DNA from: Verrucomicrobiota bacterium
GTDB lineage: Bacteria > Verrucomicrobiota > Verrucomicrobiia > Opitutales > UBA953
NCBI GenBank assembly: GCA_016871415.1
Contig: VHDL01000001.1
Location: 124,001 to 188,000, forward strand
Direction of reading: 5' to 3'
Length of the DNA stretch: 64,000 bases
Made by a program: the position numbers and the translations under genes. This document shows, piece by piece, positions 5,217-44,533 of the stretch. Below the pieces are notes generated by a model, which saw only the letters and a list, made by a program, of their open reading frames with translations, made no database searches and had not been told where the DNA came from. Position 1 is the first letter of the stretch; every line of letters starts with the position of its first letter.

Positions 5217-5522
5217 TCAGGAGCGGGAGCCGTCCTTGGCGGCTTCGGCTTCGGCCTTCTCCAGCGCGATCGAGCGCCGGATGAAGACATAGGAGATGAC
5301 CCACACGAAGGGGAAGAAGAGCACGCCCAAAATTAGCCAGGTCAGGGTGAAGCCGCCGATGCGTCGGGCCATGAGCTCCGGCTGCCAGTAGTTGAGCAGG
5401 GGCAGGGCGATCAGGGCCACGGCGAAGCAGAGGGTGCAGGTGATGGAAAGCTTGAGCTGGTCGCGCATCAGCTTGGTCAGGAAGGCGTCCGAATGGATAG
5501 GGTCGGTCGGGGGCTCTTTCAT
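5217..5522 (-). CDS. DUF485-type membrane protein, partner of the symporter
   Basis: The 101-residue protein has two transmembrane segments (ITCTLCFAVALIALPLL and FTLTWLILGVLFFPFVWVI) and a charged C-terminal tail, as in YjcH/DUF485 proteins that accompany ActP-type symporters. The ATG at 5522 is preferred over the longer frame to 5588 because family members start shortly before the first hydrophobic segment. The gene is separated from actP by three bases and is divergent from the ZnuD-like receptor gene. Confidence 0.8.
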   Translation of the reverse strand: MKEPPTDPIHSDAFLTKLMRDQLKLSITCTLCFAVALIALPLLNYWQPELMARRIGGFTLTWLILGVLFFPFVWVISYVFIRRSIALEKAEAEAAKDGSRS

Positions 5523-5580
5523 CGGGGTGGGGTACCCCATCCAGCGAAGGGTGGGCACGGACTGCAACCCTCTGTCCTCT

Positions 5581-5601
5581 AAATGCAAAAAAATTGCATT
5601 T
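5581..5601. promoter_or_regulatory. Perfect palindrome, Fur/Zur-type operator candidate
   Basis: AAATGCAA and TTGCATTT are exact reverse complements separated by five A residues. The 21-bp dyad sits in AT-rich DNA, 45 bases before the ZnuD-like receptor ATG and 59 bases before the divergent DUF485-actP start. Size and symmetry fit binding sites of Fur-superfamily repressors. A Zur role is inferred only from the ZnuD-like gene behind it. Confidence 0.55.
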
Positions 5602-5645
5602 ATGACTTGTCAGACCGCGGGCAGTCCTCTTACAAGGTGTCGCTT

Positions 5646-7634
5646 ATGAGACATCTATTAGCCGTTTCCCTCTTTTCCGCAGTTTCTCTGCCGTCTTTAA
5701 CTGCCCAGACGCCCAAGGCGATGGAGACAATCACCATCAAGGGATCCTCCATCGGAGGAATCATGTCCGCCGACACGCCGGCGCTGCTCATCGGCCCCTC
5801 GGAGCTCGCGCTGCTGCCTTCGAACAACGTCGGAGACGCGCTCAGCTCCCTGCCAGGCGTGGTCAACAGCCAGTTCGGTCCGAACGCCGGCCGGCCGATT
5901 GTCCGCGGTCTCGACGGCGACAAGATCCGCATCCTGCAGAACGGAACGGCGCTGCTTGACGCCTCCTCCGCCAGTCCGGACCACGCGGTGGGCTTGGATC
6001 CACTGTCGTTGCGTGAGATGCAGATCTACCGCGGACCCTCCGCGCTGCTCTATTCGACCAGCATCCTCGGCGGCGTGGTCAACCTGATTGACACCCGCAT
6101 CGCCGCCCAGCGGATGGGGGCCGGCGCATCGTTGGTCGGACGCTCGGGTTCGGTCGACAACCTCGCCGCCGGAGGCTTCAAGGCCCATGCGACCGCCGGC
6201 GACTGGGTCGTTCAGGCGGACGGATTCGCCCGTTCCACCGACGACCTCCGCACCCCTGTCGGACGCATCGCCGACACGGCTTCCGATGCGTTCGGGGGCG
6301 GCCTCGGCGTGAGCAAAGTGTGGGACGGTGGGTTCGTGGGTTTCTCCTTGGTGGCGCTGGAGAACGACTACGGCGTGGCGGAGCAGGGCGTCCTCGTGGG
6401 GCTGACACAGCTTCGCTGGGAGCTGGCCGGCGAGTCCCGTCTCGATGGTGCGGTGCGTAAGCTTGCTTGGCGCGCCGGCATTACGGACTACGAGCACACG
6501 GAATTCGAAAACGCCGCGGCCGGCTCCACTTTCAGCAGTCAGGGCTTCGACGCCCGCGTCGACCTGACGCTTGCCCGCATCGGCTCGACAGAGGCGGTCA
6601 TCGGCTTGCAAGGGGGTTCTTTTGATTTCGATGTCGTCGGAGATGAGGCCTTCCTGCCGGTCACGACGAACCGCAGCGCTGCGCTCTTCGGCTCCTTCGT
6701 CACGCCCTTCGCAAGCCCCGGCCTCCGTCTGCGCTACGGTTTCCGCGTGCAACGTGACTCGGTCTCGGCCGACGCGTGGACGCACGTCGGCCTGGTGAAC
6801 AATCCGCCCGCCGCCCGCCGTTCCTTCACGCCGCTCGGTCTCTCCGCCGCTCTGGAGAAGGACCTTGGCCCGGACTGGCGTACGACCCTCACGGTCAGCC
6901 GGGTGGAACGTTCGCCCAATTTCCAGGAACTCTTCGCCGATGGGCCTCACATTGGGACGGACGCCTATGAGGTGGGCAATAGCGACCTCGGCAAGGAGCA
7001 GGGCTACGGAATCGAGTGGGAGGTCGCGCGCGTCACGGGCCGGGTCACCGGCAGCGTCTCCGCCTTCTACAACCGGTACTCATCCTTCATCACGCTCATC
7101 GAGAACGGATACGGTCCCAACCTTACCGGATCCGGAGGCCCGGACTTCAGCTCCGGCGGAGGCGATGAACTGGTCCGCTACGATTTCACTTCCGTGCCTG
7201 CGCACCTTTACGGAGCCGAGGCCCGTTTGAACTATGCGGCGCTGCAGGGTGAGTCCGCCAAGGTGAACGTTGAGCTTTTCGCGGACGCGCTGCGCGCCTC
7301 ACGGCGCGACGGAGCCGGCGCCTTGCCCCGCATCTCTCCGGGTCGCGTCGGCTTCGGTCTCAACGGACTGCTCTCGGGCTGGGACTGGCGGACCGAACTC
7401 GCCTACTTCCTCACGCAGGACAACCCTGCCGCCGACGAGTCGCGCACCTCGGGCTACCCCATGCTCAGCGCCTCCTTGGGGCATTCCTTCCGACTGGCCG
7501 GAGCCAACGCCCGCCTGACCTTGCGCGGCATCAACCTGCTGGACCGCGAGGCCCGCAATCCTTCTTCCTTCATCAAGGACCTCGTGCCTCTGCCGGGGCG
7601 GGGCGTGGAGCTGGGGCTGAGGCTGACTTTCTGA
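5646..7634 (+). CDS. TonB-dependent outer membrane receptor, ZnuD-like
   Basis: The 662-residue receptor has a signal peptide (MRHLLAVSLFSAVSLPS...), a plug domain to about residue 170 and a C-terminal beta-barrel ending in LRLTF with the terminal Phe expected for outer membrane insertion. The plug contains RPIVRGLDGDKIRIL, DASSASPDHAVGLDP and a YRGPSALLYSTSILGGVVN stretch. These closely resemble the plug of the ZnuD zinc receptor family. Start ATG 5646 gives a clean signal peptide; the frame is open to 5583, but that start lies within the palindromic operator. Zinc is the inferred substrate. A second TonB receptor follows 76 bases downstream. Confidence 0.85.
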   Translation: MRHLLAVSLFSAVSLPSLTAQTPKAMETITIKGSSIGGIMSADTPALLIGPSELALLPSNNVGDALSSLPGVVNSQFGPNAGRPIVRGLDGDKIRILQNGTALLDASSASPDHAVGLDPLSLREMQIYRGPSALLYSTSILGGVVNLIDTRIAAQRMGAGASLVGRSGSVDNLAAGGFKAHATAGDWVVQADGFARSTDDLRTPVGRIADTASDAFGGGLGVSKVWDGGFVGFSLVALENDYGVAEQGVLVGLTQLRWELAGESRLDGAVRKLAWRAGITDYEHTEFENAAAGSTFSSQGFDARVDLTLARIGSTEAVIGLQGGSFDFDVVGDEAFLPVTTNRSAALFGSFVTPFASPGLRLRYGFRVQRDSVSADAWTHVGLVNNPPAARRSFTPLGLSAALEKDLGPDWRTTLTVSRVERSPNFQELFADGPHIGTDAYEVGNSDLGKEQGYGIEWEVARVTGRVTGSVSAFYNRYSSFITLIENGYGPNLTGSGGPDFSSGGGDELVRYDFTSVPAHLYGAEARLNYAALQGESAKVNVELFADALRASRRDGAGALPRISPGRVGFGLNGLLSGWDWRTELAYFLTQDNPAADESRTSGYPMLSASLGHSFRLAGANARLTLRGINLLDREARNPSSFIKDLVPLPGRGVELGLRLTF

Positions 7635-7710: not shown

Positions 7711-9726
7711 ATGCGGCCCATGCGTCCTCTGCCCCTGCTGATCGCCGCCGCATCGGCATCCCTGCTGCGTGCGGATCCGGTTCCGAAGCGCATGGAGGAG
7801 ATCGTCGTGATGGGCCGGCAGGACAGCCTGCTCGGCGTCGCCGACTCCGCCACGATTGGCGTCACGGGCGCGGTGCAGCTCGGGGAGCGACCGCTCCTCC
7901 GTCCGGGCGAGATCCTCGAGACCGTCCCGGGCCTGATCATCACGCAGCACGCCGGCGGCGGTAAGGCCAACCAGTATTTCATGCGCGGGTTCAATCTCGA
8001 CCACGGCACCGATTTCGCGACCTTCCTCGACGGCGTGCCGCTCAACATGCCTTCGCACGGTCACGGCCAAGGCTACGCGGACATGAACTTCGTCATCCCC
8101 GAGCTCGTCGAGCGGGTGAACTATCAGAAGGGCCCCTACTACGCCCAGACGGGCGATTTCGGCACCGCCGGCGCGGCCTACCTCGAGACCTTCAAGACCA
8201 TGCCGAAAGGCCTGCTCCTCGTGGAAGGAGGCTCCTATGACTATGGTCGCTTGCTCGTCGCCGATTCCGTCAAGTCCGGCTCGGGCGACCTCCTCTACGC
8301 CGTGCAGGGCGCGCATTCCGACGGTCCTTGGCTGATGGGCGACAACTACCGCCGCGCCAACGGGCAGCTGTCCTGGTCGCGCGGCGATGGTCACGATGGT
8401 TTCACGACGACGCTGCGTTTCTACCAGGGCGAGTGGCGCACGAGCGACCAGATCCCGCTCGCGTTGGTGGAGTCGGGCGCGCTCTCGCGGTGGGGCAACA
8501 TGGACCCGACCAACGGCGGCGATTCCCGATACCTTTCCTGGTCGGCCGACTGGCGTCACCGCCATGGCGGTTCGGAAGACCGTTTCCAGGCCTACGTCTT
8601 CCGCTACGAACTGGATCTCTTCTCGAACTTCACCTATGCCCTCGATAACCCGACCGACGGCGACCAGTTCGAGCAGCAGGACGCCCGCACGGCCGCCGGT
8701 TTCAGTTACGCCCACCACGTCCACGGGCAGTGGGGCGATCGTCCCACGGAGACCTCCGTCGGACTCCAATTCCGTCACGACTGGGTCGAGAACGGCCTCT
8801 ACGCCACGAATGACCGGCAGCGCCTCTCCACGACCTCGCAGCATGAGTTGGGCGTTGGCACCGTGGGTGTTTTCGCCGAACACCGCGTGCAGTGGACGCC
8901 GACGTTCCGGAGCGTGGTCGGTGGCCGCGGCGACTTGCAGTTCGCCGACGTCAACTCCCTCGCCTCTCCCGTCGACTCGGGGAACGCCTCGACGGCCCTG
9001 TTCAGCCCGAAGCTTTCGCTCGTCTGGGGTCCGTGGGACAAGACGGAGTATTTCGTCCAGGCCGGTTACGGCTTCCACAGCAACGACGTCCGCGGGGCCA
9101 CGCTCTCTTCCGGCCCGCTGCGGGGTCTCGTGCCCGCCCGTGGCGCCGAGGTCGGCATCCGCACGCTCGCGATCAAGGACCTGCAGAGCACGTTCTCTTT
9201 CTGGTATCTCCGCACCCAGTCCGAACTCGTCTTCATCGGCGACGCCGGCGCGGTCGAGCCTTCCGACGGCAGCGATCGCTACGGTGTCGAGTGGGCCAAC
9301 TACTGGACTCCTTACTCCTGGCTTTCGTTCGACCTCGACGTCGCCGCCTCGCAGGCGCTCTACCGCGACGTCCCCGTCGGCCAGCGCAGCGTGGAAGGGG
9401 CCATCGACACCGTGGTCGCCGCGGGCGTGACCGTGCGCGACCAGTCCGGCTGGTCCGGCTCGCTCCGCTTGCGCTACTTCGGTCCTCGCGACCTCGACGC
9501 CGCGGGCGCGGCCCGTTCGGAGCAGACCCTCATGCTCAACGCCTCGGTCAGCTATCAGCTCAACGCCAACTGGGACGCGACCCTCAGCATCCTTAATCTG
9601 CTCGACCGCGAGGACCAGGACATCGCTTATTCTTACGAATCCTCCGCCACCGGCGGTGCTGACGGGATCCACTTCCATCCGGTGGAGCCGCGCCAGTTCC
9701 GTCTCGCGCTGACCGGTCGGTTCTAA
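7711..9726 (+). CDS. TonB-dependent outer membrane receptor
   Basis: This 671-residue receptor has an N-terminal signal peptide, a plug with GEILETVPGLIITQHAGGGK and FMRGFNLDHGTDFATFLDG, and a barrel ending RQFRLALTGRF with a terminal Phe. The plug has a His-rich NMPSHGHGQGYADMNF stretch, which might point to a metal or metal complex, but I cannot assign the substrate. ATG 7711 or the in-frame ATG 7720 could be used. It may be co-transcribed with the ZnuD-like receptor upstream; no separate operator is visible. Confidence 0.88.
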   Translation: MRPMRPLPLLIAAASASLLRADPVPKRMEEIVVMGRQDSLLGVADSATIGVTGAVQLGERPLLRPGEILETVPGLIITQHAGGGKANQYFMRGFNLDHGTDFATFLDGVPLNMPSHGHGQGYADMNFVIPELVERVNYQKGPYYAQTGDFGTAGAAYLETFKTMPKGLLLVEGGSYDYGRLLVADSVKSGSGDLLYAVQGAHSDGPWLMGDNYRRANGQLSWSRGDGHDGFTTTLRFYQGEWRTSDQIPLALVESGALSRWGNMDPTNGGDSRYLSWSADWRHRHGGSEDRFQAYVFRYELDLFSNFTYALDNPTDGDQFEQQDARTAAGFSYAHHVHGQWGDRPTETSVGLQFRHDWVENGLYATNDRQRLSTTSQHELGVGTVGVFAEHRVQWTPTFRSVVGGRGDLQFADVNSLASPVDSGNASTALFSPKLSLVWGPWDKTEYFVQAGYGFHSNDVRGATLSSGPLRGLVPARGAEVGIRTLAIKDLQSTFSFWYLRTQSELVFIGDAGAVEPSDGSDRYGVEWANYWTPYSWLSFDLDVAASQALYRDVPVGQRSVEGAIDTVVAAGVTVRDQSGWSGSLRLRYFGPRDLDAAGAARSEQTLMLNASVSYQLNANWDATLSILNLLDREDQDIAYSYESSATGGADGIHFHPVEPRQFRLALTGRF

Positions 9727-44086: not shown

Positions 44087-44533
44087 TCAGTTGGCGTGGC
44101 CGTCCTTGGCCTGGGTGCGTCCGTGGAAGCTGATCTCGATGGTTTCGGAATCGAAGCCGGGCGGCAGAATGGAACGCAGGCTGCTCAGCACCTCGGGCGG
44201 GAGGTCGATGTCGTGCACGCGTCCGGTCGCCTTGTCGCGGAAGTGCGCGTGCGGCGCCAGGTTCGGGCAGTAGCGGGTGGATTCGCGCTCGTGGTTCACC
44301 TGACGCACGAGGCCGCAGCCCACGAAGGTCTCGAGGCAGTTGTAGACCGTCGCTAGGGACAGCCCGGGCATGGCCTCGCGGGCCCGGTTGTAGACTTCGT
44401 CCACGGACGGGTGGTCGCGCTTGGAGAGGAGCACTTTGAACACGGTTTCGCGCTGGGGGGTCACCTTCTGGCCGCTTCGGCTGAGGGCTTCCTGCAGGTG
44501 GGAGAGGTCGGCTTCGCTGAGATTTTGATTCAT
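44087..44533 (-). CDS. Fur/PerR-family regulator without CxxC zinc motifs
   Basis: The 148-residue protein has the Fur winged-helix DNA-binding part with [20 protein letters not shown] and [20 protein letters not shown], then the sensing half with [20 protein letters not shown]. The usual CxxC after HxH (as in HLICLDCG) is replaced by FRDKATG, and no second CxxC is at the C terminus, so the structural zinc site is absent. The His/Asp regulatory-metal ligands seem present. This is reminiscent of Irr-type or minimal PerR proteins. It is the first gene of the suf operon and has a dyad operator upstream, so it probably controls the operon and itself. Confidence 0.9.

Follow-up and report, generated by a model that had tools for sequence, protein, structure and literature searches.

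A predicted Zur operator before a ZnuD-like receptor gene and znuACB points to a zinc regulon in the class Verrucomicrobiae

A ZUR site of the sequence ATGCAACNNNGTTGCAT has been predicted before znuABC-zur in two Desulfovibrio species, according to the available text of Rodionov et al. 2004 (PMC545781), while high-affinity zinc binding by the receptor ZnuD of Neisseria meningitidis is ascribed, in the accessible part of PMC4557270, to D99, H100, E340, and H499. A palindrome found before zepA of Luteolibacter is described as Clostridia-like in the portion of PMC10957091 at hand. We found no Zur operator or regulon of Verrucomicrobia in the open-licence literature, and a term search of the available text of two Zur reviews (PMC6103462, PMC8000910) returned no word beginning verrucomicrob. 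Here, we describe a palindrome in a Verrucomicrobiota genome that, to judge from its sequence and surroundings, is highly likely to be a Zur operator belonging to a zinc regulon of the class Verrucomicrobiae.

In the window, that is, the whole 64,000-nucleotide stretch of DNA that was analyzed, positions 5581-5601 read AAATGCAAAAAAATTGCATTT, two 8-base arms around five bases. The spacer is AAAAA (AAATGCAA-AAAAA-TTGCATTT), and the predicted operator, AAATGCAA-N5-TTGCATTT, is a perfect 8+5+8 palindrome to which no strand is assigned. As the original prediction had it, this palindrome lies before a receptor gene, and no other place in the window matches the pattern when up to three mismatches are allowed (the mean over 100 dinucleotide shuffles was 0.01). 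At the same threshold, it is also the single match in the whole genome (2,211,368 bases in 60 contigs). The outer AAATG...CATTT of a site of this type resembles the E. coli-type Zur box, and the inner TGCAA/TTGCA replaces the classical Zur-box core. The palindrome is located 44 bp upstream of the likely start of the receptor gene, an ATG at 5646 followed by a signal peptide. A start at ATG 5583, inside the palindrome, was rejected because the signal peptide begins at 5646. By eye, no clear promoter is seen around the palindrome in the window itself; in several relatives of the genus, the same kind of inspection finds a CTTGA-like -35 element before the site, with the right arm at about the position expected of a -10 element.

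The gene behind the palindrome (5646..7634, plus strand) encodes a ZnuD-like TonB-dependent zinc receptor of 662 aa, with the TonB plug and barrel domains that it has in common with ZnuD of N. meningitidis (4RDR; PMC4557270, in its available text). When compared with solved structures, the receptor matches ZnuD best (4RDR, 1.2e-41), with the colicin I receptor as runner-up (1.8e-8), and both RPIVRGLDGDKIRIL and SPDHAVGLDP, on which an earlier assignment of the plug to ZnuD had been based, are present in it. In a pairwise alignment with 4RDR, for which an offset of 14 between the numbering of the paper and the aligned chain was fixed via the DH of SPDHA, all four zinc ligands of the Neisseria protein are identical residues in the receptor, D99, H100, E340, and H499 corresponding to conserved D112, H113, E286, and H435. 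In contrast, the long His-rich loop 3 clusters of Neisseria ZnuD, as given in the accessible part of PMC4557270, cannot be made out by eye in the receptor described here. With the NCBIfam ZnuD model NF038289, the receptor scores 247.9 bits, far below the cut-off of 950, and we therefore name it ZnuD-like rather than ZnuD proper. The TonB-hemin model matches it weakly (69 vs 317 bits).

The pattern TGCAAN5TTGCA has two occurrences in the 2.2 Mb genome, and the longer WWWTGCAAN5TTGCAWWW, with no mismatch allowed, has exactly two sites, one before the znuD-like gene and one before znuA (0 in a backward-read control). The latter stands ~30 bp before a gene for a ZnuA-family protein (PF01297, 129 bits), which is followed by an ABC ATPase gene and a weak match to ZnuB and hence heads a znuA-znuC-znuB operon. 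The znuA product scores best with the NCBIfam model of manganese-binding MntC, at 119 bits, far below the cut-off of 400. Since the genome has two sites, the regulon would be a small one of two operons. Whether the motif is absent near other zinc genes was a point on which the original prediction was said to turn, and the sole other genomic site precedes znuA, as sites do in many relatives; at ribosomal-protein paralogues, which had also been named as places to look, none was found, the two sites before the znuD-like gene and znuA being the genome's only ones. Two further sites with two mismatches (L009, at 720-740 of the window, and L010) were set aside as chance, the backward control having also given one.

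Among znuD orthologues of the genus, 18 of 20 intact promoters carry the 10-base core with at most one mismatch. These come from 22 loci examined, two of which, with a truncated 5' end, were left out; also excluded were receptor matches with E-values above about 1e-7 and, for the split gene in G046, its second piece. The cores lie upstream of the matched stretch by 53 to 150 bases, with their arms kept and the five spacer bases varying, and in two genomes (G040 and G004) the ZnuD-like gene has no site. At znuA, the core is found with at most one mismatch within 400 bases in 23 of 30 promoters (16/16 in the genus itself, 4/8 in g4, 3/4 in g5, 0/1 in g2, and 0/1 in g3), in a sample of 30 loci from 66 genomes with a match among the 79 of the family. 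The rows behind both counts come from related genomes and are hence not independent. One znuA locus of g5 (L133) displays ACGCAA-N5-TTGCGT, a symmetric change in both arms. In 41 aligned sites, the flanks are A/T-rich outside the core, which was itself used for selection.

Exact sites were found in 45 of 141 relatives, compared to 1 of 141 for the backward-read control. When the two sites of this genome are counted in and G103 is left out, there are 58 exact sites, 38 of them directly before a zinc-related reference gene, in a reference set that contains proteins from these loci (L026 and L044 match only their own reference). The L044 GTPase passes the NCBIfam equivalog ZigA, with 605.9 bits vs a cut-off of 600. 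The remaining 20 sites have no adjoining zinc reference gene, and many show nothing; among them, Pfam identifies L031 as ZnuA, and at L063 the znuD locus is present as a cut copy. In the 1.1 Mb genome of G103, the palindrome pattern matches exactly at 127 places, of which the listed ones are mostly TTTTGCAAC-N3-GTTGCAAAA, and at one locus (L069, G103:C1:40000-48000) the palindrome lies within a longer repeated element, AAACTTCCATAA... With 127 copies, the G103 palindromes are a repeat and were rejected as zinc operators.

Four Fur-family proteins are encoded in the genome. L002 (G000:C6:34484-34945) does not adjoin zinc genes there, L003 (window 44087-44533, minus strand) is beside suf genes (by eye), L004 is beside nadA, and L005 is beside katG. 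L003 is devoid of HxH and CxxC motifs and is perhaps an iron-sulfur or peroxide regulator. Naming the repressor by sequence alone failed, as Fur, PerR, and Zur receive similar ranks with both NCBIfam and PDB. In G089 (L105), the site heads a run of genes for a porin, ZnuA, a small protein, ZnuC, ZnuB, and a Fur-family protein, the final two overlapping, while in G098 (L103) a site pair heads genes for a membrane protein, a choice-of-anchor M protein, a Fur-family protein, and a methionyl-tRNA synthetase. In G300, a pair of sites is followed by a receptor gene and a Fur-family gene, and in G363 a Fur-family gene abuts the site. All four site-linked Fur proteins (L103, L105, L236, and L249) match L002 best of the four paralogues, with bit scores of 82.8, 71.2, 79.7, and 42.4 among the four, vs at most 32.3, 41.2, 54.7, and 24.6 for the others, and a Fur-family tree agrees with this link, weakly supported. 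Three of the four share H103, H105, C108, C111, C120, H139, E142, C147, and C150 with L002, residues that would suit two metal sites. The methionyl-tRNA synthetase beside the zur-like gene (L103:2219-3745) is without a CxxC zinc knuckle (by eye) and may be a zinc-sparing paralogue.

L002 orthologues (at least 45% identity) are present in 65 of the 79 family genomes. In the sister genus g2, none of eight genomes has L002, there are no sites, and six of the eight have no ZnuA; five of the eight retain L004, with 49-52% identity. When the 36 genomes of highest completeness are considered, the six without ZnuA are all among the nine without L002 (4e-5 by counting, for what is one clade), and the g2 losses probably represent one event in one clade. 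In G018 (93% complete) and G045, sites are present and no L002 was found.

Throughout the class Verrucomicrobiae, 56 of 286 genomes have an exact site, and the pattern read backwards as a control matches in 2 of 286. Beyond the class, only a weak signal is left (29 of 194 genomes vs 12 of 194 for the control), so a phylum-wide claim was dropped and ours is limited to the class. Twenty class sites, chosen non-randomly and 18 of them outside the order, were fetched, and 14 adjoin znuA, CobW/ZigA, porin, ZnuD-like or other receptor, or zur-like genes. Further class sites precede genes for a ZIP transporter (L237), MerC (L233), a plug-domain receptor (L244), and a pseudopilin (L247), and no zinc gene explanation was found at L238 or L242. 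The canonical Zur targets COG0523/ZigA, ZIP, and zur-like share the motif in relatives and not in this genome, and several genomes have site pairs ~28 to 61 bases apart. Similar DUF1559-type pseudopilins, which share a conserved DHTHxESW, stand behind the palindrome in two distant genomes (L016 in G115 and L247 in G279) and are possibly zinc-regulated surface proteins. In a Betaproteobacteria MAG (BroJett026, L159), a perfect TAATGCAA-N5-TTGCATTT, that genome's only site, precedes a ZnuD-like gene, possibly reflecting a binning error.

A family of His/Asp/Glu-rich proteins, predicted to be porins, also lies under Zur-type sites. Its five members (L105:6824-8005, L232:1711-2868, L230:2319-3653, L048:2496-4004, and L046:2587-4104) occur in the family of this genome and at greater distance, with no copy under a site in this genome, and in one genome the porin is the first gene of a porin-znuA-x-znuC-znuB-zur arrangement under the site. 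None of the five has a Pfam match over cut-off or a PDB sequence match, and the one member run against NCBIfam has no match. An AlphaFold2 model, built with five alignment rows, exhibits 16 strands (mean pLDDT 72.9) and is unsure in a His/Asp-rich loop (residues 176-200). In structural comparison, the model comes closest to OprO and OprP (Z 23.3, rmsd 3.4, over 298 and 296 residues), and many general porins follow at little distance; no zinc porin is named among the matches listed, and no zinc-regulated porin family of this kind among the titles of a literature listing. A fair guess from the model is that these proteins are zinc-specific porins. The broader idea that the zinc regulon of the class (ATGCAA-N5-TTGCAT) includes TonB-independent, zinc-specific porins with an OprO/OprP fold, working alongside ZnuD or in its place, is a tentative one, which could well hold though we lean slightly against it.

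The palindrome is very probably the operator of a Zur repressor over the znuD-like gene and znuACB, with L002 as the most likely regulator. This assignment uses what was computed, namely the site, its uniqueness, its gene context, the conservation of site and ligands, and the linkage to L002-type genes. We infer, in turn, binding, zinc as corepressor, repression, and co-transcription. With ample zinc, a Zur dimer on the ATGCAA/TTGCAT half-sites would block the receptor promoter, as suggested by the position of the site and the general Zur rule (PMC6103462, in its available text). When zinc drops, Zur would leave, and the ZnuD-like receptor and the znuACB transporter would be made, perhaps together with a second receptor. 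TonB-driven transport would then carry zinc across the outer membrane, and ZnuABC would carry it across the inner one. The second TonB-dependent receptor (7711..9726, plus strand) is encoded 76 bp downstream of the ZnuD-like gene in the same direction and is perhaps co-transcribed with it; it has no PDB match at E<=0.001. Copies that are 86-92% identical stand behind znuD in several genus relatives, with a fragment in G005.

As originally predicted, the receptor gene is opposite a divergent pair on the minus strand, encoding a DUF485 protein (5217..5522) and, downstream of it, an ActP-like sodium:solute symporter (PF00474; 3447..5213). The DUF485 start at 5522, picked by comparison with relatives, is 58 bp from the operator, and an alternative ATG is at 5540. 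The operator may also affect this pair, as the original prediction suggested, although we rate it as unlikely that it mainly governs the pair, or both directions. In favor of such control, the two start codons flank it at 44 and 58 bp, the divergent layout is kept across the genus, and G018 has no receptor gene, yet the palindrome stays before DUF485; against it, what is left in G018 could be a relic, and elsewhere sites go with zinc genes, not actP. At that G018 locus (L051, G018:C285), where znuD is lost and the palindrome is kept before DUF485-actP, TonB, ExbB, and ExbD-like genes are on the other side of the palindrome (by eye). If the site is a Zur operator, its cognate repressor could be L004 or L005 rather than L002, since L004 outscores L002 with the E. 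coli-type Zur model (41.9 vs 35.1 bits, both far below cut-off) and G018 has sites and an L004 orthologue with L002 not found. We regard this as quite improbable, because L002 is the best fit for every regulator linked to sites (L103, L105, L236, and L249), L004 persists in five g2 genomes that have no site, and L005 and L003 are beside katG and (by eye) suf genes, respectively.

A manganese (Mur-like) or iron (Fur) regulon could be imagined in view of a transporter of the Mn/Zn cluster whose ZnuA-like protein is best with MntC, under cut-off, and of a TonB receptor, a class that often carries iron or haem, with a weak TonB-hemin match (69 of 317 bits). However, the ZnuD zinc ligands are conserved, a ZigA equivalog, a ZIP transporter, and the CobW family are found under the same motif, the L103 operon has a MetRS paralogue without the CxxC knuckle (by eye), and ATGCAA-N5-TTGCAT was earlier predicted for znuABC-zur of Desulfovibrio (PMC545781, in its available text), all of which makes such a regulon very unlikely. 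Least credible is a chance palindrome or a structural repeat without function. While no zinc gene was recognized at 20 of the 58 sites in relatives and a similar palindrome is repeated 127 times in G103, only 0.01 matches are expected per window, both genomic sites precede zinc-uptake genes, and the arms are kept while the spacers change, which leaves this explanation with almost no probability.

The preferred reading, a zinc regulon under Zur, provides a testable regulon, with its operator, its probable repressor, and a list of targets, for a class whose bacteria live in lakes, seas, soils, and guts, and the operator can be used to find further zinc genes in the class Verrucomicrobiae. As here, Zur boxes of enterobacteria and Bacillales are palindromes before znuABC, TonB receptors, and COG0523 genes (PMC6103462, in its available text). 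In the ZepA system, zinc-linked PEP-CTERM secreted proteins also occur in the PVC group (PMC10957091, in its available text); in contrast, the proteins at sites here match choice-of-anchor M/TIGR03769. The original prediction held a distinct zinc operator to be new in this phylum, which is true for the phylum but not for the kind of operator, given ATGCAACNNNGTTGCAT (PMC545781, in its available text). The Desulfovibrio and window sites have the same half-sites at the same 5-base distance, ATGCAA-N5-TTGCAT, and the Desulfovibrio operon is the same znuABC target, with a Fur-family gene in it; in contrast, the inner C/G of the Desulfovibrio sites is not kept in the window site, and the phylum is another one. 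What is new is the phylum, the regulator assignment, and some of the members, above all the His-rich OprO/OprP-like porin family, and an operator type predicted for Desulfovibrio recurs in a distant phylum.
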